Positions 26,001-62,874 of a stretch of DNA of 64,000 bases are shown piece after piece. Source of the stretch: Bolinopsis microptera (taxonomy: Eukaryota; Ctenophora; Tentaculata; Lobata; Bolinopsidae). Each line of letters begins with the position of its first letter. Position 1 is the first letter of the stretch. A program made the translations under genes and the position numbers. The stretch covers positions 11,454,303-11,518,302 of the forward strand of contig NC_087075.1 of NCBI RefSeq assembly GCF_026151205.1. The letters are read 5' to 3'. The notes below the pieces were generated by a model. That model had not been told where the DNA came from and did no database searches. It was given only the letters and a program-made list of their open reading frames with translations.

Positions 26001-29000
26001 ACACTACGTCACACAAAGACAAAGCAACCAATCAGAACATGATTTGGGTGACACCCGCGTCACAAAGCAGAATTTACATATTGATCAGATCGAGCTGGTT
26101 TGTCCTTTGTAGAGTATCTTGTCACGTGGGCGTGTTTCTTAGTCACGTGGGCGTGTCCAGTTGTCACGTGACAACCAAGCGACCATGAAATCGTGACCAA
26201 TTCATGTCTTTTACATAATGGAGCAGTCACTGGATAGGTTTTATCACTCGGTTATCTTAAGTGATGGCTCGTACTTCGGGCGTGTGGTACCAAGGTTACT
26301 CCTTTTGTATTATTATGAGTGGGAATGGTATGTGATAGGTTTTTAGCGGTTACTTAACGGTAACTTAACGGTTACTTCTGCGTTCTTAAACCTACAATTA
26401 CTTTATTCCACGTGTGTGCTTCCTCGCTAAAACACACTCACATTATGGTAAATTTAACCAAATCGTGATTCTAATAGAACATCCCAATAACTGTTCATCT
26501 AGCATGAAATATATCCAGGGCTATCTTAATTCTTAATAGATATTAGATAGGTGTTAAATATTCACCAGCACATAAAATTAAAAAGTTTAAACGACAAAAA
26601 TAACTGTGTTCAGATCATAGAGCCTTTAAAAGAGCTGCTTCAGAATAAAGAAAGAAGATTTCCCGCCCCCGCAGAAAATTCTTTCAATTCTGACAAATTC
26701 TAGAGGCAAATTGTGATCTCTCCTTTCAGAATGTGGGTTGGTATTAGAGTTCCGGCTCGGACTTTTAGCATGGGTTAAAATCGATTAAAAAGCAGAATTG
26801 AAGTGCACAAAAAGCAGCAGTAAAGTGGGTGAACTAAAGAATTAATACTATAAAATGTACTATAAACTATAATCCCGGTCACGGTAAAAAATCGGTATCT
26901 TTTGTAATTTTTTCCCGAAAAAATCAATTTATTGCAGGCCTCCATTTGTGAGGTAGGACTTTCAAGAAAGTCCCGCTTGCTACTTGTTTGCAGTGTTTGA
27001 GTGTGTTTCTCAAATCGATTCCGGGGAGAAGCCACCGGCCGCTGACTTAAAATAATTCTGAAGAAAATACTCCAGGTACAAAATGAGCACATTTTCATAC
27101 TTTTATAAGCCATGATCACCTACTATAAATATGGAAACAAACTGCTACAAATATGGAAACAAACGCCCAATATGAGATAAGTCTATTCTTTAGACGCAAC
27201 AGGGAGTCCGAAACAGGTCAATAATGAGGTAATATAGCAATGGTTACAATCAAGTTACAATCAAGCTAATTATACGACATATTATGATGAAAATACTCGA
27301 AATGAGCGCATTTTCATCATTTCAACATGCGCGAGACATGTTTATAACGAGGTTATATAATATACCCGCTACAATGAGGTTATTATAAGACCGAATAATA
27401 TCAACCTAATTATGCCACATGTATCAAGAATATCAACCTATCAAAACACGTAAATACTTTACAACCTCTATTGAGATAAGTCTATTATTTACAACTTGAT
27501 GTGATAATCAGCATCACGTGATCGTCACAAACACGAGGCAACTCTGTCCAATAGCATTGATTAAAGTATAGAATATATATGTGAAATTTGCCGACAGTCT
27601 TATAGAGCAGTAGATAAGTTGTGTCCTCAGGATCAAATTGCTTATCAGAATAGAGAGAATGTTTGTTGTATCAGTCACGTGATGTTTGATCGTGAATATC
27701 AAATCATGAGACTGAAAATTATCTGAGTAAGTTCATTAGTTATAATTGTGTTTCAGCATTTCTATGGAATTACAGCATAGAATATAAGGCCAGTCGTGTT
27801 GTCGTAGATAAAATCAGTTCCACTGGATAGAACTCATAATTCTGTGACCTCTATGTATCGCCGTCACGCACAACTCCTTCAGAAAAATAGGATACAACAT
27901 TTTTTCAAAATGATGATTTTGGTGCTACGTCTCACGGTAAACAAAAGTGCTGTGCTGTGATTGGTCGGTTTGTGTCACGTGGTTTGTGTCACGTGGTTTG
28001 AAATGCAAATGTGGATGTTTTGATTGGTATAGTTTCCATCACGTGACTAACATGACATTCCTCTTCAGTCGGAGTACTCGGGTGTGCTATGATGGAGTCT
28101 GGAATCTCCAGATTGAAGAACTCTTTGGTGGGCATGACTAAGAACATCGCCGCCCTCAGTAAGTGGAAAATTACCTATTCTCATTTTGATTATTAAAAAA
28201 TAAAAAATTATAACAGTGCGTGTGATCATCTGTCGTATCAAATCAACTTATTTGTCACTATGTTAATAAATCATGATATGCAAGTTTTAATCTCTAAAGT
28301 TTTGGTTTTTTTAATGAATAAACGTAAAAGGTTACATCATAATTTTCAATTCTCATATTCCCTTTTATTGAATAAAATCATATTGTTATGTATCATATGA
28401 TTTTGTAAACATTGGCCGGTGTACCAAAAACCGGTCCCCGGTAACAGTATTATAGTTTTTTCAGTAAATAAGCCCCTGTTGAGATAAAAAGCACCCATAT
28501 TTAAAGATTATTAAGATTATCATTATATTATCATCTGAAGCAATAGTTTGTTATTAATTATCCACTCTATTTCAGCACTATCTGTGGCATTGTTTTGGTT
28601 GCTAGGTTACGCTTGGACCGATTTTTCAGATGGGAACAGGTTTTTAGGATACCGCCACTTTGCTGGACATGAACTTCCATCTGTGGTGGGTAGCTTGAAT
28701 CAGCCAATTTAATATTTGATCAATTAATCAATTAATTATTCAGATAATCGAATCGTAAATAGTATCTCATTGGACTGACAAATTCAATAAATAACAGTTT
28801 ATTTGTTTACCTATTCACCGATAACTTATTTAATCGTTAAAATTGCTATTGGGTGCAGTTATCAATATGAATCCTTATATTTCATCCGTATATTATGATC
28901 TAGACGGATGCTTCGACAAGCATATTCCTCAGGGCCTCATTTTTGGTGCTGAGTTAGCCTTTTAGTTTTAGTCCCTCAAGAAGAGTCATCTGGAAGAATT

Positions 29001-32000: not shown

Positions 32001-35000
32001 TTCGAGCATTGGCTGCCGGAGGAACTTCTAGGGAAGGTTCGTTTAATTATAACGAGTACTCACCCTTGGCTATTACAATACAGGTCACAGGAAACATGTA
32101 TTAACCAATGGGAAGCAAGCCTTGGTCACGGTATTGTCCCATCACGAGATGCAACCCAATTGATTGAAAGCCCCTCGTAAGGGGGTGAATTAAACTTTTA
32201 AACAGGCATTAAACATGAAATGACCAAGGAGAACACTAACGGGGGTGTCTCTAATGGACTAATTTATCACATATATCATAATCACTTTTTAAAATAAAAC
32301 CCCGATGGGCACTCCTGAAAAACATAACTTCTAGAAAATATATATCAAAAATAAAAAATGAAGTCGAATGAACTAAATAAGTCTCCATTAATCATTGTGT
32401 TCAATACCTAAATATAAGAGTACTGAGTGAGCAGGGGCCGTATTATAAATGTAACGTATAATTTTCTGTAAGACAAATTTGTCTTAGAGAATAGGTCGAA
32501 ATCGAACAAATAAGAATAACCCGGATCATCATCATTACCATCATGATTTCGTTTTGAAATTGTAAAATAGTTCTGGTCGTATAGTTGTCAAACTGATCAC
32601 TTGATGATGTTTTCATTTGGAGCTCAGTCAAAAAAGGTGTCGTGTTCATCGACAAACCATAGTTCCAAGGTTAAACCGAAAAGATGCGATGATTCCGCTA
32701 CAGACAGTTACACAATAGCTGAATCCTCAAAAATAATCATGATATCGAATTTTCAATTCAAGGTTCAAATGGAGTTCGTGCCGTGGAGTCTTGATTCCAT
32801 TAGCAGCGAGTGATGCTGAGTCGTACTCTTACTCAGTTCACCATTAAAAATAAGATATCTTATTTGAGCGGTGTAGATGATGATTGGGAATGCCATTAGC
32901 ACTCATATCAGTAAAATAAGAATATTGTAGGATAACCTTTAACATTTTGAATATGATTACTTTGAAGATTACTTACATTTAAAAAACCTGTATCAAAGCC
33001 CTTGTGTGTGGCCCTCGAAGACTTTCAATAAATTAAACCCTATCAATCCATTGTGATCCCATCAAAACAGCGCGATTTTAAAGTTTCATGATACAATGAT
33101 ATAAGAAAAAATTATTATTGGAAAACAATATAATAAACTACTACATATTTTCAGCAATACAGTGAATTCTTCTTTTTTGCCTGTGTCGGAGGTCTGATAG
33201 TAGCGTTCGTAAGCCGGGCTATGGTGGAGAGAGTAGCTATAACGGCTCATCTTGTCGGCTGTGGAGTTATATCAGGTGGGGTTTACAGTTATATAATTTG
33301 TAATAGAAGTTCTATTGATTTTAGACTTTTGATAATGCTAGTACAGTTAAACCCCGATTCTTTCCTCCAAAAAGGGTTTAACATACATAACGTCCGCTGT
33401 AAATAATAAATAAAATAATTATTTTCTCATATATTTCTCAAATATGACATAATATAATATGCGGCTAATAAACAATCGCCCAATTATCAAACTTATTGCT
33501 CTGATTGGTTGGAAATTCTATGCGAATTATATGATCCCCCACTTTTTGATGATATTATTGTATAAAATTTGATAATTGAAAATTAATTTAATGATTAATT
33601 AAATAACAACTTGATTGTTAAGGTTTCGTGTGGCCGGTGGTAGCACATTGGGTGTGGTCTGACGAAGGATGGTTAAGAGTTGGAGTTACTACAGGCGAAG
33701 GAAAATCTACTCAATTTATAGTAAGATTTATAGATTTAAAAAAATATTTATAGATGTGGATTCTGGCGGGGAGGTGGGGCATATGTTTTTTTTACACCAT
33801 TAATTATAAGTTATATTATATTATTTTCTTTTCAGGATGACGCCGGTGCAGCTTGTATCCATATTTTTGTAGCTGTAGTAATCTTCGTGGGGTGTTTGAT
33901 CACTGGTCCTAGATACAGAATATCAGGCAATAACAAGACACACGGTACCAGCTCTTTTGTAGTGAGTCTTTCAATTACATAATTAATCAATTAGTTTATT
34001 AGTTAATTAGTTTATTAGTTTAATAGTTTATTAGTTTATTAGTTTATTAGTTTATTAGTTTATTAGCTTATTAGTTTATTAGTTTATTAGTTTGTTAGTT
34101 TGTTAGTTTGTTAGTTTGTTAGTTTGTTAGTTTGTTAGTTTGTTAGTTTGTTAGTTTGTTAGTTTGTTAGTTTGTTAGTTTGTTAGTTTGTTAGTTTGTT
34201 AGTTTGTTAGTTAATTAGTTTGTTAGTTTGTTAGTTTATTGGTTTATTAGTTTATTAGTTTATTAGTTTATTAGTTTATTAGTTTGTTAGTTTGTTAGTT
34301 TGTTAGTTTGTTAGTTTGTTAGTTTGTTAGTTTTTTAGTTTGTTAGTTTGTTAGTTTATTAGTTTGTTAGTTTATTAGTTTATTAGTTTATTAGTTTATT
34401 AGTTTATTAGTTTATTAGTTTATTAGTTTATTAGTTTATTAGTTTATTACTCACGTGGTAAATGGTACTGATTATTGATTATTATTTATGCTGTGTTTTG
34501 GCTGGTGTCTGGTTGAACCATTTATTTAAGAAATGCTATAATTAATCCCTCCAAAATATCATGGTCATACGACTGTCACAGATCAAACACATCACCTCAT
34601 ACCTGGATGGAAATCAGGATCACCGAGCACTAAGGGAACGTGTTGATCGAAATCAAACAGATCAAATTGTGGAGTGTTATAAAGTTGTTGTACTCTATAA
34701 GTGTATATTCACCTACAAGCATAACTGCTTGGCGTGATGAGGTACATCTTTGATTGGTCGAAGGTCTTTCAACAACACAGCATCATCACTTTCATAGTAG
34801 TCCCCGGCTTATGACGGGTTCATAGCGGTATTAAACATGTTTTTCTGGGCCCAAACATTCTACACTGAGTAATAACTATAAGTATCTGTATAATATATAT
34901 GACGCACAACTTCTGTCAGATTTACAATTCAAAACCATTTAACCACATGCTCGTTAATGGTGAGACTGTTCATAGAACTTATATTTAAGAAATGCTAAAA

Positions 35001-38000
35001 TTAATATCTCCAAAATATCATGGTCATACGACTGTCACAGATCAAACACATTACCACATACCTGGATGGAAATCAGGATCACCGCGCACTTAGGGAACGT
35101 GTTGATCGAAATCTAACAGATCAAATTGTAATTTCAACACTGAGTAATAACTATAAGTATCTGTATAATATAGATGACGCACAACTTCTGTCAGATTTAC
35201 AATTCAAAACCATTTAACCACATGCTTGTTAATGGTGAGACTGTTCATAGAACTTATATTTAAGAAATGCTAAAATTAATCTCTCCAAAATATCATGGTC
35301 ATACGACTGTCACAGCTCAAACACATTACCTCATACCTGGATGGAAATCAGGATCACCGCGCACTAAGGGCAGTGGGCACGTGTTGATCGAAATCAAACA
35401 GATCTAAGAGAGATCCGGTCTTACTCATACTGAGTACCAACCCTCATGCTAGTAACATATATTTAAGAAATGATATGTCACGCCACAATATCATGGTTAA
35501 ACGACTGTCACTCGCGATTACCTGAGGCAATCATTACCTCATAGGTCATACTTAAAGGGAAATCAGGACCACTGAGAAGTGAGAACTAAGGGTGCGTGTT
35601 GATCGAAATCAAACAGATCTAAGAGAGATCCGGTCTTAATGGCCCTTTTCCTAGTTACGTGCTGATTGGTTTGTTTGTGTCACGTGGTGTATTAAAGTCT
35701 CTCAAATCAAGCAGTAGTCCTAATATGGACTGTCAGCGGATTCTATCTATATCTCAAACACTTAAACAGGCAGCACTCGTGAAAAAGTCGTGAACAGGGG
35801 CCGTGAGCAATGGATTAGAACGCTGTCACTCCATCACGTGCTACAAACCAACCAATCAAAACACAGTAATCACGCCAGTAAGTCAGGTGATACCAGCCAC
35901 TGTCCCGTCCTCACTGCTGAAAGTTAATCAAAGAAAGCTGGTACCAACTCAACTGCCAAGTTATATGGGATAACTGTATTTAATGACTAACATATGGGGG
36001 GGGGGGGGGGGGGGGGGGCTGTCATCGTCACTCGCTTTTCACAGTGAACATTTTAAAATCTTCGCCATTATATTTATATTTATACTCTAAGGCTATAGAG
36101 CTAGAAGAGCTATAATAGCAATAAATCGAGCTAAAATTGAAGCGAAAATTCTGAGTTTTTTGCCACTTATTCGCTTTATTTTTTGTCACGTCGCCCCCAC
36201 TCTGCGAGTATTCACCACTCAGCACCTTTAAAGTGACACTTTTTAAACACCAAGGTGAATAATATTGTTGTTTGGGACAATCACATTACGTCAAATTGAA
36301 ACGATCAGACTATATCTTTCTGCATATAGCTTTAAAGTCGATAAATTGGGACTTAATTTAGCTGATTAAAAGCATAGCTATTGTTACTAGATTGAAAAAT
36401 AAATTCCAAAAACTGAATTTTGATGAAAGTAAGAGATTCAATTTTTAATCACTAAATGGTATACATGGAAACCAAGTTTCCTGTGTTCTTGGTTTACATG
36501 AGCAAGTTTATTGCGGTACGCTTGCAGCAGACCTTGACGAGTGCTGTTTTATATACCAATAGCATTAGATGTGGATTTTGGAACGTGCAGTGATACTGGG
36601 GTTTGATTGGTCAATAGTGGAAGCTGATTGGTTTATGCTGTCACATGCCAAAAAATATGCCTCACCACCCCACCAGAAGGCAGACTACACATCTATATAT
36701 AGAATTTTTAGTACGTGTCGAACTACAGTACGTGTACGATTTGAAGAATACCGGTACCTTATTACTTATCCCTCACGACCAATGTAATTTGAGTTATCGC
36801 AAGCATTAAAAGTCTGGCGACTACCACGACCAATACCAGCGCCTAGCTGCGAAAGATCATTGGCTTGATTGAAGTGAACGGTGAAGATAAAATATGATTT
36901 GGTTGGGGGACTGGTTTATATATTTGAGACTTTAAAGCAGCCAGCCATCACTGTTATAAACGGTGCAATTCGATTTATCTAGACATCTTTAAGAGGTTGT
37001 CACAATGAATATCTAAATAATTCGACTACTTCCGACGGTTGTGCCGTCGGAAGTAGTCGAATTATTTAGATATTCATTTTATAAAATCTGGTTTAGTAAG
37101 TTATGGCACAGCGCCAGGTAATGAAGGTTTTAACTCCCTAGCAGTATTTACGTCATGAACTGAAATTGTAATCACTAATCAATAATCATACCTTACAATA
37201 TAAGTATCTGTAAATAGATGACGCACAAGTTCTATCCAATTTTGAATCATTTAACAGTTAATGATAAATATCGATCGCACTAAAAATTGAATATTTTGGT
37301 AAAATGCCCAAACTGGACAGCTGGAAAAATCTAAACTATGTATATCTGACTGATGGCTGTTGATATTTCTTATGGAGTCCATCCTCTTTCACAAAACATC
37401 ACTATCCTCCTCTACACAAACATGGTACACCACCTTCAGATTCTTTTCCCGCAATAAAGTACAACTTTGAAACCCCGCCACCATTTTTAAGTGCCAGAAC
37501 TGGACAAAACATTTCCTTGTGTTCAAAACAATCTACAAATCCTCTCTTTCAGATAGCCTGCGTCGGTGGGATTATGACTATAATTTCTCTGTTTGCTGTG
37601 CATCTTGGAGTTAGACGCAGTATCAGTGGTAGTGACACAAAAGGAAACCCAGAGGGTCTGTTTATTGTTTATTAATCGAATTAGTAATTAAATAGTTAAT
37701 TAATCAACTCGTTAATTTATCTATATATATATATATATATATACAATGAAAACAACGATTCTACAAACTCAAAGTTTCATGCAAATGCAATCATCAGTGT
37801 CAGAATAACTTACTAAATTACTAAATCCATATTTTCCTTACAAGCTCCTTCATAAAATTAACTTAACTAAACTAAATCAAAAACAAAATCAAACGAAACG
37901 AAACGAAATGAAATACAAGAACAAAAACTAAAATTAAAATAAAATATTCCTAAAAGCATTTCTTCAGCATAAACTTGTTGGTGTGCCTACATTTACTTAT

Positions 38001-41000
38001 GAGTTCCCTCCTCCTATTTAATAGATTGCCATCTTTATTTAAAATAATATAAAGTTTTTCAGTAAGGCAGAGATGACAATCTTTCGTACCCCCCTTGTAC
38101 GGATGAGCATGTTTGATTATTTTCTGCCTTACTGAAAAAGTGTTAAATCTGCAGGTAAACTCTCTTAAATTATTGGCTCACAGGACCCAGCAGTCAAAAT
38201 AGGTATAAAAAAGTTATATGAAATTTTAAAACGGGAGTTAACCTATACTTTATAATTAAAATACCAATGACCCAGGTCACGAGATAGGAATAGCAGCCCT
38301 AAACACACTAGCAGGGGGAACTGGAGGCGGTGGTATGTTGCTGATACTTGGCAGAGTTTACAAGAATAAGTGGGACGCTCTCAGTGGCATTAACGGCTTC
38401 TTAGTCGGCCAGGTTAGTAGGGCCTGGGGTTTTAACGGCTTCCTAGTCGGCCAGGTTAGTAGGGCCTGGGTCAACTGTCAAGTATGATGTTTTATTTTTA
38501 CATCCCGCTTACATTTTTAGTTTATTGATTAAAATAAGAAATTAGAAATTGGATATGAAGTTCCCTCGTGAAGTAAACACTGCACGCTTCTCGCCGAACT
38601 AAAATTTCTGAACCAGACACCACGTGAGATTCACAACACCACGTGTGACTCATAAAACCACGTGTGACTCATAACACCACGTGTGATTCACAACACCAGG
38701 TGTGACTCACAACACCACGTGTGATTCACAACACCACGTGTGACTCATAGCACTGCACGTGTGACTCATAACAGCTAATCATAATATTCATTTGAGTTAT
38801 ATTACTCGAAAAATCGTGCAAATATTTACGATACTAATAAGATTTAGAGCTCCGTTATTTAAATGGTTAAAAGTTCAAGGCTGTCGTGTTTAAGATACTA
38901 CTTAACCGCATTATTTTACTGAATTGCGTTGTAAACCATGAGTGATCTAGTAGTGGTCAGCAGTGGTCGGATGCAGGGGGACTATTTGAAGTATTTATCT
39001 TGGCTTAAATAGGTTAGTCTACAATTTATAAGAAACTATTGGCTGTCCAAGAGTTGACGTCCTGCAAGGTATTATAAAGTGTGGCAATATAATCGGCCGA
39101 CGTTATAGATCAAGAAATCAGGATACATTTCATAATATGAGTAAATTACCTCACCAAGAAATGATGATTTCAGGAAAAAAAGTCGAATTTCACCAACCTT
39201 TCTGAGGGCTCCTTGGTTAAAAGTATCATGATAAAGTTTTAAGCAGAATATTATGACGAACACAAAATCAATCTAACAAAAATATCAAAAAAGGAAATAT
39301 TTTAAAATAGGCTCAATAATTAGTAACGAGACAGATATTATTTCGAGATAATGTAGCTGTCGTTCAAAAAGAGACAGCCCTGGAAGCATTTTTCAAATCG
39401 TAGCAACTATAGTTTGTAGAGGTTGATTACTTTGATACAGGATCTGATTGATATACCAGATACCTATAAGCTTAACCCTCCTCGATCGGGCATCGATGTT
39501 ATGAGAGAAAGGCATCATACAATAAAACATACCGCTTTTTCATTGCATGCATATTATGTGAAAAAGTGAATGAGGGTTAAGGGGGTTCCAACGGCAAATT
39601 TTGTCCACAAAAAAATTGCCAATTAGTGTTAGTCATTTAATATGAAGCCAAATTCGATTGTAAACTTATTGTAATTTTAAAATTTCTGGATCTCTAATAA
39701 AAAGGAAATATCCTCGCGATTATAGTCGTAGTCTAAATAAGTATAACTAAGTCGTAGTATCCCCCCTCTAGCTTTCAGCAAAGAGACCTCCCAAGCATTA
39801 CCATTGTTACCAAGGTTACTGCGTTATGAGCTCTTAATTCAATATAACCACCTTAACAAGGGATGTTCTGAAAAATCACAAAAAAAATAAGCACATTGAG
39901 AGTATATTGCTCTGAAATCTGAATTGTTGGTCCTCTACACTGTGCAATTCTGTAGAGTATACAGTATTATATCGCAGAAGGTGCTTGTTGGTCCTCTAGA
40001 CGTCCCTAATTACACTCTCACGTCTCTCATCACTGGATGTGGCCGCTAGTAGTAGTTCAGACAGACAGCCGACCAAACAAACAAACAAACAAACCAACAA
40101 AAAACAAACAAACAGAAACTAAAGGACAATGAAAAGGTTACCTTATAGGTGAGAACCCTCACCCAACATATTACCTGGTAACCTGGTAACCTGGTAACCT
40201 GGTAACCTGGTAACCTGGTAACCTGGTAACCTGGTAACCTGGTAACCTGGTAACCTGGTTACCTGGTAACCTGGTTACCTGGTAACCTGGTTACCTGGTA
40301 ACCTGGTTACCTGGTTACCTGGTTACCTGGTTACCTGGTTACCTGGTTACCTGGTTACCTGGTTACTTGGTTACCTGGTTACCTGGTTACCTGGTTACCT
40401 GGTTACCTGGTTACTTGGTTACCTGGTTACCTAGTTACCTGGTTACCTAGTTACCTTGTTACCTAGTTACACATCACAGACAAACCACAGACACAACACG
40501 GTCACACCACGGTCACACCATAGACAAATACAGAGAAAGACAGAGAAAAGATCTATCAAGTGAGAATTCTCACGCATACAGGAAAACAATTTAACTTTAA
40601 GACATGTGGACTGACCACTTTAACGGAAACTTGGGTGTGACGATAGCCGGTACAGCAGCTGGAACATCTCAGCAATCTCTTGTGTTCTGAACAATGTTTT
40701 ATAAGGTCGGAATTCCATTAAATCACTTACGTAGTGGAGTACAACTGTTTGGGCTCTCTGGTATAATTAATGCTTTTTGCGGAACAAACCTAACTCCACT
40801 TAGTAACAAAATATTAAATTATGGAATATTTATTATTTTGTCAATGTCGGCCTCGCCTCCGTAATACAGTGCAGCTACCACGCCATTTTACAAACATGAC
40901 CATTCTTCATAATTACATCAAGGCTACTGATTAATAATATTACGGGTCAACACATATAGTTGATACGGTGATAAAGTTGTTTAGCATATGAGCGGTTTTG

Positions 41001-44000
41001 ACGTAAGCAACATTGATATTTCTGTGACATGCCTTCAGAAGGAGATACTGATAGGGTATAAGCCCATACAATAAGAGATATCTTACTATATATAAAGCGA
41101 GACGATATATATATATTTATTTATCCGCACCATTTTACTGACACCACGGCATCAACTTTAACACGGGTTTCCGCAAAAACCGTACAAGATATAAAACTGA
41201 AACTTTTTTAACTGATTCAAATGCTTTAATGGCCTTCAAATCAGCATGAAAAAATCGAAAATTGGCCAAGGAATAAGAATTTTAGTACCCAAAATTTGGA
41301 CCCCCAATTGGTGTCAAAAACGCGAATTAAATAGGTAATAATTATTTTCACCGGGGGACTTTAGGGTAGGAAACTGATCCGGCCACCAAAGAGCCTTGAC
41401 ACCAGTCTTAAAGGTTTGACGGGTTCCTGCTAGTAATTATAAACCAACCTTCCCCGTAACGTATATCGACTGCGTAGAAATTATACTGGCGGGTATCGTA
41501 AGTTGTTCTACTCGAAATTTCAATTGAGAGATCACCAGATGGCAACAAATTACTGTATTATACGCACAAAAAGGCAAACTGCGAGCACAACAGCTTGTAA
41601 ACATTTATAGCACAAACAGTTAAACACAGCTTCTTGCAAATACTTTAATAACAACATTCGAGACAATATTTAATACCTTAATGACTGTGGTTTAATGACT
41701 GTGGTTACCCAATAGCAAAGTGGTTTCAACTGTTTTATGACAACTATTTTGTAAGAAAACCATATAGATCACCCCGCAGTAACGCAAAGTACCGAGAAAA
41801 GTACCGAGAAATCCTTGAAGATAAAATCAAAGTTTGTCTCAACCTTTTAGAGGTTTTTTTTAATTAAGTTGTTTAATAGCACCAGTTTTATGAACTTCAT
41901 GGCCATGAGTATGATGCAAATTAGTCCTCAAACTTAAAGTTTGTCTCAACCTTTTAGTTTACTGGGGGCTATTTTAATAAAGTTATTTAATAGCACCAGT
42001 TTTATAATCTTCGCAGATACGAGTATGAAGCAAAGTAGTTATTCAAGTTTGTCTTAACCTTTTAGAGCACTGGGGGTTGTTTTAATATAGTTATTTATTA
42101 GCACCAGTCTTAATCTTCGCAGACATTCGCATGGCGATGTTTAAAGTAAGAAATATAAGCAAGCGTTTAGCGTAGTTCATCATCAAGTCGGTGCATTTGA
42201 CGACTACAGTTCAAATTTACTGCCTTGAATTAACCTTTTCCCCAGATATCAGTAGCTGCTGGAGTATACGGTTATTACCCCGGGGTTGCATTTTGTGTGG
42301 GGGTAATAGCTGCATTCTCATACGTTCTCTGGGTTCAAGTAGCTAAATGCTTCATTGACGACCCTCTCAAAGCTTTTGCTGGTTAGTCAGGCATCTCGGG
42401 AATTTGTAGATTTTGTGGTTCATTGAAAACAACTCGAAATTAATGATGGATTTAAGGCAGATTTGATAATAAATATGCTTCAAATTTTAATAACCACAAC
42501 ACCTATTTCATCAGTTCATTTTGGTGGCGGATTATGGGGTATATTAGCGGCTCCGCTTATGGTTAGGGATAAAAGTCTCTTTTACGACTTCACCTACTTC
42601 AGGTACGATCTTTAGTTAGTTCAGTTATAGCTCGTACTTTGCGTTTGCTGTAAATCTTTGATGTTACACTAAGTTAAATTTGCGTACTTTCTTCTTCGTG
42701 ATGTTTTAATGAGTTTGATTTAGGGTTAAACATCGCATATCACAACTAAATTTAGTAACCTCAGTTTATTACTTCAGCTGTGATATTATGCTGACCATGA
42801 CTTTAATACTTGATTGGTCAGTAAAACAATAATCCCCAGAGTGCAAATGTTCGGCTGGAATGTTCTAGGGGCCTTCGTTATCATCATCTGGGCGGCAGCT
42901 CTGTTAGGTCTCGTGTTTGGCTTCCTCAAGTTCTGCAAACTCCTCAACATCAAGGAGAGTGACTTTGAGGTAGGGCTGGATAAGCTGTACCACAAACAAA
43001 AGGGTAGTGCTGCAGTTGTTATGGGTAGGAGTAAAACTGTAGCCAGGAGCCATAAGCCCTCTGGATCAACTATTGGAAGGTGGGTACTTTTCGACCGAAT
43101 TATCTATACTATAATTTAAACTTGACGAAATTTCCCCGGCAACGGGGACATAGAAGAAAAAACACCGAAAATCGACCTCAAAATGACCCTCTGGTGAAAT
43201 CAAACCCAGCTCGCAAATGGAGTTGAAACCTCGCCATTTTTAGCAGGGTTGTAGAAAAAGGATAGGAATAGGCTATAGCATTCTTAGAATTTTGATTTAG
43301 GCTTTAGATTTTTTATAATTAACGTCGGAAGTGAGGTTAAATAATCGTTAGAATAATGGCGTTATTTTAGCAAAGGTTTACTGCGCTGTTGCGTAGCAAC
43401 GATAAAAATGCACGTGCGCGAGCAAGAACATCTTAACTACGCGCGTTGTTATGCTGTATGCTACGTCATAACTTCAAAACTAGCTCACATTTACGCTCAC
43501 GCTATGACTTATATTCATAACTTTGGTTGTGATTGGTATTTTTTGATGCGGTAAAAAGTATCGTTTTGGGAATCCGAATACTAACAACGCTGCCGCCATT
43601 GTTAAATAAATTCCATTATGTCCACTGTATAACAGAGCTGTATGATGAAGAGAAATTAAAACATAACTGATTTTTAAAATTTCCTCGAACAAAGCTTTCG
43701 ACTAGCGGGTTTCTAGTCATTTTAAAATGACTAGTTGGATTGTTTGACCATTGACTAGCGATGACCGATAAATACCTATATATATTTATAACTTTGGTTG
43801 TGATTGAAATTTTTTGATGCGGTAAAAAGTATTGTTTTGGGGCTATATGATGAAGAGAAATTAAAACATAACTGATGCTTAAAATTTCCTCGAACAAAGC
43901 TTTCGACTAGCGTCGGGTTTCTAGTTATATATAATATAATTTAAAAATATATATACTTTTATTTTCTGAGAATTATTCGTTGTAAGGACTGATATTAGTA

Positions 44001-47000
44001 GCTTCTAAATTCTTTATTCTCATGCAACTACCATAGATACATAGTATTAACGTAATTTTTACCTGATAAAACAACGATTTCAGGAGTGAAGTAGAGATGC
44101 AGCAAGTAATAGTTGAAGGGGATGTGAAATACAAAAAAGGAAAGGGGCCACATATCAAAAAAGTTAAAGTGAAAAAGCAAAAAGATGTTCCTGTCAAAGT
44201 TGTCGATGATATTTATGTCAACCCTAACTTTGGTGAGATCAGCGGTTACCGAAAAATAATGTTAATATCTAGAAAGATAGATTAAATCTTTTCAGTTAGG
44301 AAAGAGACAAAATCTGTAAAATATACAGATTCAATTTCATCTGTAAAAAAATGAAGATTGCGTTGAGCTATCGTATTAATAACTGATTTGTTTTCGTCAG
44401 ATAATAATGTTTACATAAACAACATTAAGTCTAAGTCCAAAAGCAAAAGCAAATCGCCTGAAAGAAAAAGAAGTAAGAGTCACTCCTCTGGTGATGAAGT
44501 TGAATTAGAGGTAGGTCTTGGAGTAATAGTTATTTCCTTCTTCTGACAACTGCAAACTGTAGTCAGATTATTGAAGTAGATTTATTAAAAAAATATCTAA
44601 ACTTAATTTATGCAATTAATGTTCATTTATGATTTAACTTGATGTCGTACTTCAGGTTCAGGTTAAAGCAGGGAGATCCTACTCTCCTGAGTACGACATT
44701 ATCGAACTACCCAAGGTAAAGTCCATATAATTTGTTAGTGCAGTAAAACCCTGATTTACCAAGGCCATTTCCTTCCCCCAAATAGGGCTTAAAATGAATT
44801 ATGTAAACTAACGAAACCCCGATTCACCGCAAACCAGATTTACCGCGGATGTTTCCTTTCCCCAAACTTGTATTAGGATTTTGATTTTATGATAGATTAA
44901 TGTATCATTACTATTTTGATTTTCTTCCTGTTTATTCAAACGTTTTCCTGTCACGTGTGAGACAGAGGCAACAGTGCAGCATCGCACTATTCGCCGTTTC
45001 CCGCACATATTCGCACTTTAAGCCGTTTCCCGCACATATTCGCACTATTACACTAACAGTCTTTAACAGCCAAAATTTCCGTCTAAGTAGCTTTTAAACC
45101 GGGCCGTATAGTAACCGGATATTTAAGCCGGAACCGAATTCAGCCGCATATCCAGTCAATCGTCAGCATTTGAGAACCCCATCCGGCCCCCTCGACTGAT
45201 TACGTGAAAAATGTCTTTTAACACCACCATATTGGGTTTGGAAGCATATCAGTTATTTTTTCAAAACGCAAAATATCGACTATTAGTATTCACTTGATGA
45301 TTCGTTTACCTCGATACCAAATATTTTATATATTCCGACTAGAGCTCTTTTGATGAAACATAAAAATGGAATAGAATCTTGCCGTCAAATCATAGCGATA
45401 TTTTCTAGATGTACTAATTTTGATGAAATATGAGTACTGAATCAGAGTAGCAACTTGCAAAATTTATAGCAACGATTCCATTTAAAGAAACCAGATGGTA
45501 TGAATTTGCCTTTAGGGCAAAAGGACACCAAATTTCTATGGTGAGTAGATGAACTTTCCAATGATTCCAACGCGACGATTGCACTCTTACAAGTCACAGC
45601 TTTAGAAGAATCACATAATCATACCTATATGCTGTGAGATAACTTATAGACTTATATCAGAGTGTATTTAAGACTGATCAGAGTCAGAATAATCATATCT
45701 CTTATCAGGTAGCGCAGTTGGTTAGAACGCCAGCTTTGCAATCGTGAGGTTGCGGGTTCAAATCTCACTGTCTGCCTGGTCGTGGGGTGAGCGTCGTTGA
45801 CGTTCAGCTAAGGATCCTGAGTGGTCTATGCAGCCCCCCGGTCTACTCAGCCGAATACTCGAGAAATCGGGTGTGAGTGTTAAATGAGGAGCTGCACATT
45901 GCAGCAAAGTCTCGGGCGAAGAAAGTATGGTACACACTACCTTAACCTCTTAACCGTCACTGGCCAAATAAATCCTTCGGCTTCCTGTAATTGGCTTGTT
46001 GTACTTGTGTAACAATGTGGCTGTTGGAATACACTGAAGTAAAATAAGTGTCTTGATATTTGCTTTTTTGTTGTTAGGGAGCGTTCATATATTATTATTA
46101 ATTATTACGTCAGCAGATTTTTTGGCCATTTTTACAGACAGGTCTAGACTCACCGCACTCGAGCTGCACTATTTGCCAAATTTGCCGCACATTAAGCAAT
46201 TTAAGGCAAGTGCAGAATCGCACTTTTCGCAAAATTTTGCCGCACTTATATGTTGCCTCTGGTGTAGCAACTTTGCTTCATTCACCTTAATTAACAAACT
46301 TTTCCTTTCAGAAGATCAGCAAAGATATGTCTGATGATGTAAAATACATAAATGGAAGTAGAAGTCCTATTGAAGTGGGGTTGGCTGGGGATGCAAGTCC
46401 AGTAATAGTGCAATACGTAGAACCTGAGGTTAATATTGGTGTTGACCGACCAGGTTTGGGTATTACGGTCAAAAAGAGCAGAAGCAGAAGTACGAGCAGC
46501 TCATCTTCCAGTTCCAGTTCATCTTCATCTTCCTCCTCAAGCAAGAATAAAGCTAAGATCCAAAGTGGCATTCCGATCAATGTTGAACGTAGTGGAAGAA
46601 TTGGTGGAAGCAGGAGCCGCAGCAAAAGTCCAGTGAATATTGATATGGGTGGCGGAATTGCAAGTCCAGTAATAGTGCAATACGTAGAACCTGAGGTTAA
46701 TATTGGTGTTGACCGACCAGGTTTGGGTATTACGGTCAAAAAGAGCAGGAGCAGAAGTACGAGCAGCTCATCTTCCAGCTCCAGTTCCAGTTCATCTTCA
46801 TCTTCCTCCTCAAGCAAGAATAAAGCTAAGATCCAAAGTGGCATTCCGATCAATGTTGAACGTAGTGGAAGAATTGGTGGAAGCAGGAGCCGCAGCAAAA
46901 GTCCGGTGAATATTGATATGGGTGGCGGTATCGGTGGCGGTATTGGTGGCGGAATTGGTGGCGGATTTGGGGTTGATCTTAGTGGTGGAGTGGTAAAACC

Positions 47001-47343
47001 AGACGTTCCACCAGCAGATATAGAATTAGGAGGTAATCTAGAAAGAAAGGATATTGTAGAAACTGAGGTTGGAAGCGGTTTTGGTGTACATATTGGTAAG
47101 AGCCGAAGCAGGAGCAAGAGCAGGAGCAAGAGTAAGAGCAAGAGTAGAAGCCGATCGTCATCTAGTTCGTCCTCCTCTTCCTCCTCCTCCTCCAGCAGCT
47201 CTAGTTCTTCCTCCTCATCTTCTTCTTCGAGTTCAAGCTCTTCGTCCAGCTCCTCTTCAAGTAGCAAATCTAAATCATCGGATAAAAAGTCAAGTGACGA
47301 TAAGCCCAAATCTGGTGACGAAAAATCAAAGTCCGATGATTAA
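20045..47343 (+). CDS. Amt-type ammonium transporter with giant Ser-rich C-terminal tail (15 exons, about 906 aa)
   Basis: Exons: 20045-20165, 28069-28158, 28576-28685, 33155-33275, 33623-33720, 33836-33961, 37553-37655, 38276-38412, 42246-42381, 42515-42602, 42840-43079, 44084-44232, 44401-44510, 44656-44715, 46312-47343. All are GT-AG with matching phases. Amt/MEP/Rh motifs in order: MMESGISRLKNSL, LFWLLGYAWTDFSDGNRFLG, PVVAHWVWSDEGWL, DDAGAACIHIF (Asp181; His189 as first pore His), NTLAGGTGGGGMLL, NGFLVGQISVAAG, IDDPLKAFAVHFGGGLWG (His349, second pore His) and FEVGLDKLYH at the end of the core. The family conducts ammonium across membranes. From about residue 420 the protein becomes a long basic, then Ser/Arg/Lys-rich tail. 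The TM6 region (exon 7) lacks the usual GWFGFN block. Exon 1 was chosen for its acidic N-terminus plus TM1. An alternative first exon at 26264-26327 has the same phase. Confidence 0.9.
20842..20979 (+). CDS. short Pro/Ser/Leu-rich ORF in hAT element (45 aa), behind a TATA-like box
   Basis: The frame MEYYELFNPIPISLPSLSPS... ...INLDDILTPAPARTF follows a CTATATAAC TATA-like box about 65 bp upstream and ends at TAG 20977-20979. Composition is acidic/proline-rich with an LDDIL segment reminiscent of activation motifs. I do not recognise a family. It may be a truncated first exon of a transposon gene, or chance. Confidence 0.3.
   Translation: MEYYELFNPIPISLPSLSPSSIQPLPLEAYINLDDILTPAPARTF
20985..21206 (-). 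pseudogene. BED/CGGBP1-like zinc-finger N-terminus of a hAT transposase (truncated)
   Basis: From ATG 21206-21204 the frame reads MDHFVKRPADKPAG, a basic RKRSKQAKQ stretch, then EFGKSSFYADNGKLFCRACN with the finger C-x2-C...H-x4-H completed by VVDHIRNNH. This matches the pattern of BED/CGGBP1-like DNA-binding domains at the N-terminus of hAT transposases. The frame ends at 20985 soon after the finger, and no catalytic domain follows. It is therefore the remnant of a transposase inside the hAT element, oriented against the host gene. Confidence 0.7.
21325..21532. repeat. minisatellite of TATGTC(G/T)(T/A)(C/T)TGGTCAA units, hAT interior
   Basis: About ten units of roughly 19-21 bp alternate between TATGTCGTCTGGTCAACTT and TATGTCTACTGGTCAAGTT-type forms. 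It is open in all three frames, so the overlapping ORFs are artefacts. Confidence 0.9.
21536..22640. repeat. 255-bp tandem array, four full units plus a partial, hAT interior
   Basis: The word GGACTCGAGGGCTCCCC recurs at 21756, 22011, 22266 and 22521, giving an exact 255-bp period. Units differ by a few substitutions. Because 255 is divisible by 3, a 275-codon frame (21754-22581) stays open across units. It repeats an 85-residue peptide with no known fold and is probably not coding. Confidence 0.95.
23328..23355 (+). repeat. poly-G run (28 G)
   Basis: An uninterrupted G tract read directly, followed by TCGGGGTG. It is quadruplex-prone. Confidence 0.95.
24850..25020. promoter_or_regulatory. 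cluster of CCAAT-box plus CACGTG E-box modules (four copies)
   Basis: Four tandem units of about 50 bp carry TGATTGGTT or TGATTGGCT (inverted CCAAT) followed 10-12 bases later by TGTGTCACGTGG or a variant (CACGTC, CACATG), then TGTGAATACTGT. The same pairing recurs at 27957-27995, 35665-35700 and, inverted, 35835-35870. A regulatory role is inference; it could also be a dispersed repeat. Confidence 0.45.
25248..25295. other. perfect 21-bp hairpin, 6-nt loop
   Basis: The arm AAGCTGCTGTCTGATCTTTG(A) at 25248-25268 is exactly inverted at 25275-25295 around TCTTTC. It lies in Amt intron 1. Confidence 0.9.
26120..26175. promoter_or_regulatory. three closely spaced GTCACGTG E-boxes
   Basis: TCACGTGGGCGTGT occurs twice, followed by TTGTCACGTGACAA, a palindromic E-box. 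They lie about 100 bp upstream of the alternative Amt first exon at 26264. Confidence 0.5.
26264..26327 (+). other. alternative first exon candidate for the Amt gene
   Basis: ATG at 26264 opens MARTSGVWYQGYSFCIIMSGN and ends at a consensus GTATGT donor in phase 1, which fits the exon at 28069 (joined codon Val). A stop codon lies one codon upstream of the ATG at 26258. It would supply a shorter TM1 and is a plausible alternative promoter/first exon, with CACGTG boxes just upstream. Exon 20045-20165 gives the better TM1, so this is secondary. Confidence 0.3.
29064..29110. other. perfect 23-bp inverted repeat with 1-nt centre
   Basis: ACTTATACTTTTATACAATT(TGT) at 29064-29086 is exactly inverted at 29088-29110. 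It is an AT-rich, cruciform-prone sequence in Amt intron 3. Confidence 0.9.
29948..30628. repeat. minisatellite of ATTACGTGCCGGGTCTA(A/G)C units (about 17-20 bp, more than 30 copies)
   Basis: Long array of TCTAACATTACGTGCCGGG and CTAGCATTACGTGCCGT variants. Higher-order blocks are visible: the same order of variants recurs near 30000, 30180 and 30410. Every unit contributes an ACGTG or ACATG core. Confidence 0.95.
33980..34447. repeat. TTAGTTTA/TTAGTTTG 8-mer microsatellite
   Basis: Nearly uninterrupted 8-bp units, with blocks of TTAGTTTG flanked by blocks of TTAGTTTA. It begins directly after the donor of Amt exon 6. Confidence 0.95.
34527..35645. repeat. four diverged copies of a block of about 130-150 bp
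   Basis: TTTAAGAAATGCTA...CCAAAATATCATGGTCATAC GACTGTCAC...GATGGAAATCAGGATCACCG... GTGTTGATCGAAATCAAACA occurs near 34527, 34983, 35260 and 35458, increasingly degraded. It lies in Amt intron 6. A 65-codon open frame over one copy is not supported as a gene. Confidence 0.85.
35996..36018 (+). repeat. poly-G run (23 G)
   Basis: An uninterrupted G tract in Amt intron 6. Confidence 0.95.
37004..37078. other. perfect 35-bp hairpin, 5-nt loop
   Basis: The left arm 37004-37038 (starting AATGAATATCTAAATAATTC and ending TTCCGACGG) is exactly inverted at 37044-37078 around TTGTG. It lies in Amt intron 6. Confidence 0.93.
38600..38775. repeat. ACCACGTGTGACTCA(C/T)AACA tandem repeat (E-box rich)
   Basis: About eight units of roughly 19-20 bp, nearly all containing CACGTG. 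It lies in Amt intron 8. The flanks to 40070 show no exon. Confidence 0.85.
40075..40110. repeat. (ACAA)n microsatellite
   Basis: Consecutive CAAACAAA units in Amt intron 8. Confidence 0.8.
40172..40470. repeat. 8-bp ACCTGGTA/ACCTGGTT microsatellite
   Basis: About 37 units. The first third is GGTAACCT, the rest GGTTACCT, with an alternating transition zone. GGTAACC and GGTTACC are each self-complementary or nearly so. Confidence 0.95.
41815..42125. repeat. three tandem copies of a unit of about 110-125 bp
   Basis: AAGTTTGTCTCAACCTTTTAG...ATTTAATAGCACCAGTTTTA recurs at about 41830, 41937 and 42045 in Amt intron 8, just before exon 9. Confidence 0.8.
43485..43925. repeat. direct duplication of a block of about 130-220 bp
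   Basis: ATAACTTTGGTTGTGATTG...TTTTTTGATGCGGTAAAAAG and GAAATTAAAACATAACTGAT...AAAGCTTTCGACTAGCG occur at 43515-43710 and again at 43790-43915. The second copy lacks an inner portion. It lies in Amt intron 11. Confidence 0.85.
44740..44870. mobile_element. pogo/Tigger-like short repeat, copy 4
   Basis: It begins TGCAGTAAAACCCTGATTTACC and repeats CCCCGATTCACCGC and AGATTTACCGCGGATGTTTCC. It is related to copies at 4045 and 10026 and lies in Amt intron 14, about 25 bp after exon 14. Confidence 0.5.
45704..45960 (+). mobile_element. tRNA-derived SINE
   Basis: The head has a TAGCGCAGTTGG A-box-like segment, a TTTGCAA anticodon-like loop (Ala-type TGC) and a GGTTCAAATC B box. The 5' ATCAGGT and 3' GCCTGGT can pair as an acceptor stem, but the anticodon stem no longer pairs. 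The sequence continues for about 180 bp as a body rather than ending as a tRNA gene. The 3' end is uncertain. It lies in Amt intron 14. Confidence 0.75.
46389..46930 (+). repeat. in-frame tandem duplication (about 267 bp) within the Amt last exon
   Basis: Two near-identical units encode SPVIVQYVEPEVNIGVDRPG..., a Ser run, KNKAKIQSGIP and SRSRSKSPVNIDMGGG. The second copy has a slightly longer serine run. Near-identity at the DNA level points to recent duplication. Confidence 0.93.
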
Positions 47344-47697: not shown

Positions 47698-49683
47698 TTT
47701 AACGGGTGATACTCGTAAAATATCTGTTCCATATATTCCAACTCGGCGCGCGTCCTGGTAGGTTATAAACCTACAAATTAAGATTAAAACATTATTTTTG
47801 GTCCCGCGGTTATTTATAGATGCTAATTCCTTGTCTACGATTGCAAATGTTTTAAACTTTCATTTTAATTTCATCTTCAATCATGAGTTATATTGGAGGG
47901 CTTCGACGCGCCGCGCGAACTAGCATTCTTGCTTCGCATCGAAGATCCCATCGTCGATCGTTGTTACCTGAGGACCCCAGGCTATTATGTTCATTAACAT
48001 ATATATTTGGCGGAATGACAGGCTGAGCGCGGCCCAGTAACGATCTCAATGGGTTGACATCGTCAACCAAGAGTTATAGTATGTATTACTATTAGTAAAT
48101 GTCAATGACCCTTTGTGCAATTTGACAGGTTTCCATTATGTGTTATGACAATATGAACTAAAAATCACCGCCAAAAAATATTATTATTTTTATTATTAAT
48201 CTTGTAAATCATTATCCTTTATAAAATCTAATTATTAAATTTAAAATACAAAGCAGTGTATTATTTGTGTGTCAATATTGCTTGACGGATGTTACTCGCC
48301 TAAATTTCTTCGAAGTAGCGCGCACCGCTTTCTTCTTGATGGCAAGTGCTACGAAGTAGCGCGCGCCGGGCCAGATCATTAACAATGGTCAAAATATTGC
48401 CAAAGTTTGAAGTTTGTTCGGCCGACAACATGCCATCCAAATTAAAGAAGCTTGTTTATTCCAGCTTCAAGTTTGTTTACATTAATTCGAACAAATTGAA
48501 ACAATCAAAATGGCAGGCAAACATGAAACAATTTAACTTTACTGCAGGGATTTAACAAAATCGCAGACGATATCGAGATATGAGATAGCTTTTTATTTAC
48601 TAAACCTCTAATCTTAGAAAAGAACAGGCCGCGAAAAAAGGTATACAACGTGTTTCAATGATTTCTACTAAAGAGTTTAACGAGTGATACTCGTAAAATA
48701 TCTGTTCCATATCGTCGACGAGTCCAACTCGGCGCGCGTCCTGGTAGGTTGTAAACCTACAACTAAAGAGTTCAAGCTTTAATTTCACAATACCAAATTT
48801 GTTATGCTTTTTCGGAATGATCACTATTAGTAAGTTTCGCCGCGCTTTCATGGTGCTTTACATAGTCATGACTTTTATGTAGCGTGATGCGCTGATGCAT
48901 TGGAGGACTTCGCCGCATCGACTTGCCGCGCAAACTATTACATATTAACGGGTGATACTCGTAAAATATCTGTTCCATATACAGGACCGTCGACGAGTCC
49001 AACTCGGCGCGCGTTCTGGTAGGTTGTAAACCTACAACGCAAACTAGCACTTACACTTTTGCAGTATGCAGATCGGCGAGTATGCAGATCGGCGAGATGC
49101 GAAGGATTGACATCGTGAATCAAGCTTTGCAGAGCAACGATCTCGATGGATTGACGCATCGTCAATAAAAATAAGCGCTAAAACCCATCCTACAGCCAGT
49201 ACGCGCGGCTCACTGTCGATAGTTGTAGCGTTCACCTAACCTTACTGGGCGATGCTCAGCCTGTCATTTCGAGAAGAAAGCGGCGCGCGCTACTTCGAAG
49301 AAATTTAGACGAGTAACATCCGTCAAGTTTATATTAGAGGGTTAGGGTATCGAATAGTCATTCAGGGCTTACCTGGGGATTACTGGGCGGCGCTCAGCCT
49401 GTCATTCCGCCGAATCTTATTTCATATTTGTTTATGAACATAATAGCCTGGGGTCAGTCATGTGACAGTCGAGTGAAGAGAGATTAATCTTCATCCTAAA
49501 ATGTCACAATTGAAGCTAGCTTCCAGTACCAAGAAAACAACAAATGCAAGAAAATTATAAATTAAAAAATCAATCATAGCAACAATTGGATTAACGGGTG
49601 ATACTCGTAAAATATCTGTTCCATATATTGGACCGTCGACGAGTCCAACTCGGCGCGCGTCCTGGTAGGTTGTAAACCTACAA
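47698..49683. repeat. four dispersed copies of a repeat of about 85-95 bp
   Basis: TTAACGGGTGATACTCGTAA AATATCTGTTCCATAT...GTCGACGAGTCCAACTCGGC GCGCG...CTGGTAGGTTGTAAACCTAC occurs at about 47698-47782, 48678-48762, 48944-49037 and 49592-49683. All copies have the same orientation. Each ends in a GTAGGTT/AACCTAC hairpin. Short minus-strand frames through the copies share RFTTYQDARRVGLVD and are repeat-derived. Confidence 0.9.
47973..49455. repeat. nested inverted repeats (outer about 70 bp, inner about 56 bp)
   Basis: Outer arms are 47973-48040 and 49380-49455 (GACCCCAGGCTATTATGTTC... GGAATGACAGGCTGAGCGC). Inner arms are 48281-48336 and 49272-49327 (CTTGACGGATGTTACTCG... TTTCTTCGAAGTAGCGCGC). 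A third, partial copy of the CTCAGCCTGTCATT block lies at about 49253-49269. The spacer holds two of the four repeats of about 90 bp but no transposase frame. Confidence 0.85.
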
Positions 49684-54600: not shown

Positions 54601-55026
54601 AATAATTTTAAATTTTTCGGCTAATCGGTTTAGTTCCATGCTAAAGGCATCAAAATTTGTTTTATTGCCATCTATGTTCTGGAAAATCATGGAGCAGTTG
54701 CTTGCAAAACAAGGTTTGATATGTGTGTTAAAGTCCTTAATTGTATAGGATCTACAGTTTTCCAAAGCATCGGACATCTTTTGGATACATGGGTCACAGT
54801 CATTAACTTCAGGATCGGTCATTACTTTAAAAGGATTGTATTTTTTAGATATGGAATGTTTACACTCGTTGCAGTAAAAGTTTTCATTGATAACTTGCGC
54901 TTTGGAAGGATTAAAACATTTGGCATGGAGAATACTATTGCAGTTAAAACATTCAAAGTGGGGAAGCCCTAATCCAATATTCTTCAGACAGTGACTACAA
55001 ATTTCCTTTTGAACACGATTAACCAT
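51682..55026 (-). CDS. LINE B ORF2: PHD-like finger, endonuclease, reverse transcriptase (1114 aa)
   Basis: It starts at ATG 55026 (MVNRVQKEICSHC). Residues 10-55 form a C-x2-C...C-x2-C...H-x2-C...C-x2-C PHD-like finger. The EEP endonuclease follows (MIFQNIDGNKTNF, GLAETN, LGDFNINLHDE), but its last motif reads ISHHHAVF where active family members have S-D-H, so the catalytic Asp seems replaced by His. The reverse transcriptase shows NYRPVSTLPVFGKILEKL, FGFRKGHSTSHA, DLSKAFDTLDHC, GVPQGSVLGPLLF and FADDTNIF, and the C-terminal region follows. The frame is open throughout. A truncated relative is at 1-1664. Confidence 0.93.
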   Translation of the reverse strand: MVNRVQKEICSHCLKNIGLGLPHFECFNCNSILHAKCFNPSKAQVINENFYCNECKHSISKKYNPFKVMTDPEVNDCDPCIQKMSDALENCRSYTIKDFNTHIKPCFASNCSMIFQNIDGNKTNFDAFSMELNRLAEKFKIIGLAETNIGIEESTVYYLEGYNCFYQDKHINKAKGSGVALYLKDELNGVVNEELSWVTKNLETLFITIQHDEPVHVGVLYRPPSGDSTEALNELRKIIESCPKKNAYILGDFNINLHDENSKLVQDFENLILGLGLSPLISTSTHHKPGCNESCIDNILTNNIENSICSGTISTCISHHHAVFHIFNSPLVSTEVHEQNYFQYYDYCAKNVDKFVEVLDNELTSDPPEDFSNFFTVFNHQLDSACKLSQPKCSKRTAKNNPWITSGLIASINRKHELYDLWKKAVKKKCLNASSTNHADCLTLCFNCTNKVTRHEEFKAHRKLLNHLINSAKRKYHGVKITECAGDSKKTWQIINELRGKKRREIKPNFVINNERVINRRVIANEFNKYFASIAANLNEAYSGDFLRINSLPSFTDYLPTSVTSSIFLCDCDCIEIKEIINELKNGKSSDIPIHVIKKSCQITAPYLARYFNKCMQEGHFPDELKTGRISPIYKKEDEQLLENYRPVSTLPVFGKILEKLIYKRLYSFLTSKGIIHENQFGFRKGHSTSHALNYSVEHIESLISKKQHVLGVFIDLSKAFDTLDHCKLTTKLNNYGIRGNALNLISSYLSNRKQFVNVLDTKSDELPVEFGVPQGSVLGPLLFLLYINDICNITKKGKFVLFADDTNIFVAADSRNKAYELANEVLQAVNKYMGVNLLHINVKKCCYMYFSPSKRNNNELDADIDSQNLSINNKIIKRVSQTKFLGVIMDDKLSWKPHISSLNKKLRSACGRIYRIKKCLPESLYKQIYHSLFESHLGYAISVWGGIPNNQLKPLFITQKKCIRILFGDYEAYVDKFKTCARARPINSQRLGSEFYVKESTKPLFTKHELLVTENLYRYRCLMELFKIIKSRVPISLYYLFNISNRKDNLFITPSPTNQFIYKSAWLWNEFRKVGPLTFTSTCGSVKNLLKQSLLRAQNRYGTEWCDRNFTEF

Positions 55027-55031
55027 ACCTG

Positions 55032-57005: not shown

Positions 57006-57130
57006 ATAGACTTTGCCGCCAGACGAGCGGTAAAATGGAGAAGCAGGCTGATCTTGGAGAGAGCAGACCGTAAAAGTTACGCACCCACCAGAGCTACCTA
57101 TCTACCCCAGTTGTTCTTTTTGGTTTATCA

Positions 57131-62796: not shown

Positions 62797-62874
62797 TCTT
62801 TTGGGAGGATGGAGACAGATATAAAATCTTTTATGATGTATAACTCAGAAGTTTCGGGGTCCTCAAATTATTTG

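Follow-up and report, generated by a model that had tools for sequence, protein, structure and literature searches.

Ammonium transporters (Amts) are trimers with cytoplasmic C-termini. The locus described here, in a 64,000-nucleotide window (the whole stretch of DNA analysed) of the ctenophore Bolinopsis microptera, raises the question of whether an Amt gene can continue by splicing into a tail of nearly 500 residues rich in Ser, Arg and Lys, as the initial annotation proposed, or whether the tail exons belong to a separate gene. It further raises the question of what such a tail might do at the membrane.

The Amt gene was rebuilt as 14 exons (E0-E13) on the plus strand over 28069-47343, and the joined model encodes 865 residues without a stop. 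All 13 junctions between E0 and E13 are GT-AG and phase-consistent; because the frame was in view when the exon ends were set by eye, and because the ends of E2 and E5 were shifted by one base, this phase agreement is partly by construction. E0 (28069..28158) carries the TM1 end/loop (GVLGCAMMESGISRLKNSLVGMTKNIAAL) and was placed by a weak local profile match (E=0.19), the motif seen by eye, its splice sites and a phase match to E1. E1 (28576..28685) is a core exon within the profile match of the joined core. The core continues with E2 (33155..33275), which contains the ER motif and a Val at the F107 position, E3 (33623..33720), which contains AHWVW (W148), and E4 (33836..33961), which contains D160 and His 168. 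E5 (37553..37655) encodes TM6, with Val at the F215 and S219 positions; its 3' end is uncertain and may lie at 37655, a poor donor, or at 37628, both of which keep the phase and leave the tail unaffected. The remaining core exons are E6 (38276..38412), E7 (42246..42381, IDDP), E8 (42515..42602, VHFGGG with His 318) and E9 (42840..43079), the last of which encodes TM11 and the C-terminal region (EVGLDKLYHKQKGSAA). Upstream of E0, a local profile search over the open reading frames of the window gave nothing convincing for a start exon that would supply the initiator Met and the beginning of TM1. With the TM1 of a paralog as the tblastn query, the matches listed were only noise.

The joined core (E1-E9) matches PF00909 at 143.1 bits (cut-off 23.2, E=1.3e-41) over profile positions 45-397 of 399. 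In an alignment with E. coli AmtB and two paralogs, W148, D160, the twin His H168/H318 and D310 are kept, and the core also retains the ER motif. Compared with E. coli AmtB and the two C8 paralogs, F107, F215 and S219 are replaced by Val, and W212 is replaced by Leu. The F107 position was placed ungapped back from the ER motif, whereas F215 and S219, in TM6, were placed by a few shared residues; a Phe lies two residues ahead of the F215 position. As aligned, both Phe-gate residues of transporting Amts are replaced in this gene, which bears on sensing versus transport. The known sensor Ks-Amt5, described as sensing ammonium without transport in the available text of PMC5764959, retains the Phe gate, so gate loss alone is not the known signature of a sensor. 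At the ExxGxD motif of the C-terminal region (named in PMC4852598), the GLD is kept and the Glu is off by one residue (FEVGLD).

Splice sites beyond the core were scored with a matrix trained on the core exons of the same gene (9 donors and 10 acceptors). The E9 donor (AAG followed by gtgggt), which ends the exon in phase 2, is the highest-scoring GT in 42850-43400 and lies in the top 0.5% of the 1212 in the gene region. Among 1144 AGs, the acceptors of E10, E11, E12 and E13 rank at 3.0%, 5.9%, 18.7% and 0.5%, respectively, and the donors of E10, E11 and E12 rank at 1.5%, 0.7% and 23.8%. The matrix is noisy, since core sites left out singly span 0.5% to 46.2%, with the E5 donor at 46.2%, the E0 donor at 32.3% and the E3 acceptor at 18.0%. 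An AG at 44296 outscores the E10 acceptor (8.0 vs 6.3 within 43090-44300) but leaves fewer than 60 open codons. When the E9 donor was joined to each of 192 AGs in 43110-46320, nine gave at least 60 open codons, four scored at least 6.3, and only 44084 did both. Collectively, the four junctions from E9 to E13 are GT-AG and phase-matched, which agrees with the matching splice phases that had been proposed past the Amt core, and the fusion of the Amt to the tail is well supported by splice sites and frame. Judged from the DNA, the Amt and the tail very probably form one fused gene.

The initial annotation counted four to five tail exons; there are four, not five, at exactly the positions given there, and they continue the frame of E9 up to a TAA at 47341-47343. 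E10 (44084..44232) is the first and is basic (KKGKGPHIKKVKVKKQK). E11 (44401..44510) contains SKSKSKSKSPERKRSKSHSSGDE and matches in phase. E12 (44656..44715) encodes 20 residues and has the weakest splice sites of the tail. E13 (46312..47343) is the last exon, with 343 codons plus the TAA and poly-Ser, RS/SK and Gly-rich segments. Both alternatives to the chosen frame are closed by stops in E10, E11 and E13; in E12, two of the three frames are open. Together, E10-E13 encode a 449-residue tail, giving 482 residues after the GxD motif, and its composition is 28.1% Ser, 11.1% Lys, 10.5% Gly and 5.3% Arg. All the segments quoted for it earlier (KKVKVKKQKD, SKSKSKSKSPERKRSKSHSS, SRSRSK, poly-Ser and the final KSDD) are present.

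From its N-terminal part, the tail runs from the basic stretch through an SK repeat with SPERKRSKSHSS and a short V/I-rich linker to a duplicated unit, which reads VIVQYVEPEVNIGVDRPGLGITVKK - SRSRST - poly-Ser - KNKAKIQSGIPINVERSGRIGG - SRSRSKSP - VNIDMGGGI. Beyond this unit follow GGI repeats, an RS/SK block, 37 consecutive Ser residues (47155..47265) and an acidic-basic end. A V-x-I-(RS/KS)n pattern is common to E11 and E13, and E11 aligns with the RS segment of E13 at a Smith-Waterman score of 67, against 40.6 (sd 4.6) for shuffles, none of which reached this score in 2000; this match is of low complexity, and shuffling destroys the alternation. For E10 and E12, the similarity to E13 is not significant, since 486 and 910 of 2000 shuffles, respectively, score at least as high.

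The earlier description of the tail as SR-type is fair as far as composition goes. Under the RS-domain composition rule given in the available text of PMC9479744 (a 20-residue window in which S and R account for at least 20% each and for at least 70% together), six windows qualify and merge into one 25-residue stretch (GKSRSRSKSRSKSKSKSRSRSSSSS, 47095..47169). No RRM was found in Pfam scans of the core, E13 and the first 161 tail residues, so the protein is not a classical SR protein; in addition, KS/SK pairs (38) outnumber RS/SR pairs (32) in the tail. Across E10, E13 and the first 161 residues of the tail, every Pfam family stayed below its cut-off, and no folded signalling domain of the Ks-Amt5 type was seen there after the Amt module. 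Weak matches of E13 to SOG2 (7.6e-4), Pheromone, FAS_pseudo-KR, IMUP and Teneurin_ABD, and of the tail start to CBM60 and DUF4805, fall below the curated cut-offs and were set aside as artefacts. In the charge-hydropathy comparison, the tail lies marginally on the disordered side (hydropathy 0.414 vs a boundary of 0.436), and order-promoting residues make up 24%.

E13 is open over 343 codons, and none of 2000 dinucleotide shuffles kept any frame of the plus strand open. The duplicated unit consists of two tandem copies inside E13, of 267 bp (46393..46659) and 273 bp (46660..46932), which differ by one 6-base in-frame indel (+6 in copy 2) and by four substitutions, all four of them synonymous and two of them right at the unit's edge. 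The poly-Ser runs of 16, 18 and 37 residues use five, five and six different Ser codons, respectively, the last therefore all six, with TCN and AGY codons interleaved; slippage of one codon would not yield such mixed runs. The synonymous-only copy differences and the mixed Ser codons argue, although the numbers are modest, that the protein sequence of the tail is maintained by selection. A 343-residue open frame also crosses E13 on the minus strand; in our judgement it is a compositional mirror of the Ser/Arg codons, and it was rejected as a coding candidate.

Across the genome (264,652,675 bases, 232 contigs), 13 other clusters of Amt matches occur at E <= 0.001. This family search missed the window gene itself (no match on C4, where the window spans 11454303-11518302), a sign of how divergent the gene is and how short its exons are. 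Elsewhere in the genome, the core scores best against two full-length Amts on C8, to which it is 29% identical. C-termini could be read in six of the 13 clusters (two on C8, and those on C12, C13, C3 at 14.78 Mb and C6); the seven without a readable end are C2:8.58, C3:14.80, two on C11, C8:10.16, C7 and C2:0.71 Mb. In all six, the GxD motif is followed by 29-59 residues with 0-7 Ser, compared with 482 residues and 131 Ser here, which bears out the proposal that ordinary Amts end some 30-60 residues on. For four of the six, the end was set at the first stop met in frame in the last exon, on the assumption that no splice precedes it; between GxD and stop, these four last exons contain 34 GTs, the best scoring 6.8 (top 2.9%) vs 8.9 for the E9 donor. 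In these four paralogs, which carry introns (C12, C13, C3 and C6), the last exon opens shortly ahead of the C-terminal region and includes the stop, soon after that region. The gene in the window is not interrupted by an intron there, and its E9 passes through the region into the donor.

When the tail was searched against the genome as an abridged 287-residue query (without the second tandem copy up to the GGI repeats and without the final SK/poly-Ser/acidic end), seven matches were returned, five at its own locus and two others at E=0.48 and 8.3. The notion of a mobile or repeated module was rejected on this basis, one copy being found with that query. Given the short paralog tails and the lack of another tail copy in this search, the tail appears to have been gained locally by a single divergent paralog, with exon capture as the simplest route. 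Outside this genome, no relative of the core or of the first 168 tail residues was confirmed in viral_contigs, and a plasmid search returned 15 records with bacterial Amt-like matches at 24.5-28.7% identity.

Some further observations concern the Amt family and the surroundings of the gene. The two C8 Amts, L001 and L002 (13.995 and 13.937 Mb), are intronless, full-length and 58 kb apart, and the other Amt matches are split into exon-sized pieces; the pair is possibly a retrocopy and its duplicate. The C13 Amt (L032, 3911-4162 in reverse-complement coordinates, minus strand) has a short C-terminus with a basic/Ser patch (RTRRSRKDSNSRS), a possible miniature of the tail theme described above. 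On the minus strand of L038, an Amt-like TM6 segment (6556-6810) lies beside about 1.6 kb of tandem repeats (4700-6400) that lack stops in each of the three frames on this strand (GGGGTLHFL / YTTLSGGG / VHYTFWGGG). Within the window, the introns of the Amt gene hold tandem arrays of CATTACGTGCCGGGTCTAA-type units and TTAGTTTG-type units and an 8-base CCTGGTTA array (29930-30630, 33980-34250 and 40150-40470), and just downstream of the gene, at 47700-49040, a repeat of the form GGTGATACTCGTAAAATATCTGTTCCATAT...CCAACTCGGCGCGCGT(C/T)CTGGTAGGTT occurs in three copies counted by eye. The intron before E13 contains a stretch at 45700-46020 with tRNA-like boxes, which we take to be SINE-like; ARAGORN found no tRNA in the 64-kb window, this stretch included, and an Rfam scan at gathering thresholds gave no match over the same window. 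The long open frames at 4564-9188, 51685-57101, 58529-62844, 2-1501 and 62878-63999 are presumably ORF1/ORF2-like pairs and fragments of non-LTR retroelements, as suggested by endonuclease and reverse-transcriptase motifs seen by eye.

Several other explanations of the locus have to be weighed against a functional fusion. The Amt could end after E9 or on a short terminal exon, with E10-E13, or E13 alone from the ATG at 46327, forming the gene of an SR-like protein. Reading E9 through to the stop at 43117-43119 would indeed give 45 residues after GxD, an ordinary length, and there are in-frame ATGs in E10 (44097) and E13 (46327) as well as an AATAAA at 43605, though this hexamer is common in AT-rich DNA. 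Against this arrangement, the top-0.5% donor lies 37 bases ahead of the read-through stop, and if E9 were terminal, a donor of this strength would be a coincidence or would leave the read-through form as a minor intron-retaining isoform. Moreover, the ATG of E10 is preceded, at a distance of 13 bases, by a good in-phase acceptor, which a first exon does not need, and the top-0.5% acceptor of E13 would be superfluous in a single-exon gene. Two separate genes are quite improbable. A gene in decay, that is, a pore-altered Amt paralog on its way to becoming a pseudogene, appears highly improbable: replacement of the Phe gate, S219 and W212, some weak splice sites, the start exon that was not found and the repeats crowding the introns would fit it, but 865 codons run over 14 exons without a stop, the twin His, W148, D160 and the ER motif are retained, and the changes in the last exon are synonymous only.

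A serious rival, although somewhat unlikely, accepts the fusion as real and regards the tail as a tolerated, fast-expanding low-complexity appendage without specific function, comparable to the end of ScMep2. As PMC4852598 describes, ScMep2 has a disordered end past its phosphorylation site that lacks conservation and can be dispensed with; disorder at the end of an Amt therefore does not imply a function. The single tail copy found in the genome, the growth driven by repeats (tandem duplication, poly-Ser and GGI repeats) and the tail pieces scanned without a Pfam family above the curated cut-off are all compatible with such an appendage. On the other hand, duplicate copies that differ only synonymously and the mixture of Ser codons suggest selection on the protein, and three small spliced exons plus one long exon have been held in frame.

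The explanation that we tentatively prefer, at a little short of an even chance, is a single-copy, divergent Amt with an altered pore and a 449-residue cytoplasmic tail that is phosphorylatable and serves in clustering or scaffolding. In this model, E9 would be spliced to the four further exons to yield one membrane protein, and the tail would be cytoplasmic because of the standard Amt topology. The protein would form a trimer whose tails make up a disordered brush. The basic segment near the membrane might contact acidic lipids, while the RS/SK and poly-Ser blocks could be phosphorylated by SR-type or CK2-type kinases. With three tails per trimer, the assembly would be multivalent, which may allow phosphorylation-controlled clustering or partner docking, perhaps as a readout of ammonium binding. 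Given its altered pore gate, the Amt module might act more as an ammonium receptor or a modified channel than as an ordinary transporter. A bolder version, which we consider rather unlikely, would make the protein an animal Amt transceptor: a non-conducting or re-gated ammonium-sensing module without the Phe gate, joined by ctenophore exon capture after the C-terminal region to a phosphorylatable RS/poly-Ser readout tail that condenses or recruits SR-type kinases. Should the transcript prove real, the gene would make it possible to test, in an early-branching animal, whether an Amt can be converted into a receptor or into a membrane protein that anchors condensates, and it offers a natural example of a terminal exon lengthened by splicing into low-complexity exons.

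Among the matches listed from open-licence PMC text, no title or abstract start described an animal Amt with an RS/poly-Ser tail. The gene shares with metazoan Amts (PF00909) the profile range 45-397, the twin His, W148, D160, the ER motif and the GLD; in contrast, it lacks the Phe gate, W212 and S219 and extends 482 residues after GxD, compared with the 29-59 of the six paralogs read. As described in the available text of PMC4852598, fungal Mep2 is regulated by phosphorylation in its C-terminal region and likewise has this region followed by disordered, phosphorylatable residues, but its disordered end spans 25-43 residues, compared with about 450 Ser/Lys/Arg-rich residues here. Only three distinct PDB sequences match at E up to 1, namely, 6eu6, 8qj3 and 8qpf. 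The first is the ammonium sensor histidine kinase Ks-Amt5, from a bacterium for which PMC5764959 documents an Amt joined to a signalling module; it resembles the present protein in its long C-terminal part after the Amt module. In Ks-Amt5, however, the Phe gate is retained and a folded kinase is attached, whereas the present protein has other residues at the gate and no domain was recognised in its extension. The other two, both named 'Ammonium transporter' (644 and 661 residues), also have a long C-terminal part, judged by chain length only. For the tail itself, the nearest parallels are the SR-related and poly-Ser proteins SRRM2 and PNN (PMC9479744, PMC9934293, as far as their accessible text goes), with which it shares an RS stretch and poly-Ser runs. 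RS domains are regulated by phosphorylation and can phase-separate (PMC9479744), and a poly-Ser of 42 residues can form assemblies in cells (PMC9934293). Differences are that no RRM was found in the present protein and that its tail is joined to a multi-pass Amt core. Collectively, what is novel is the unusual pore of this Amt and the unusual tail appended to it; the gene does not represent a new system.
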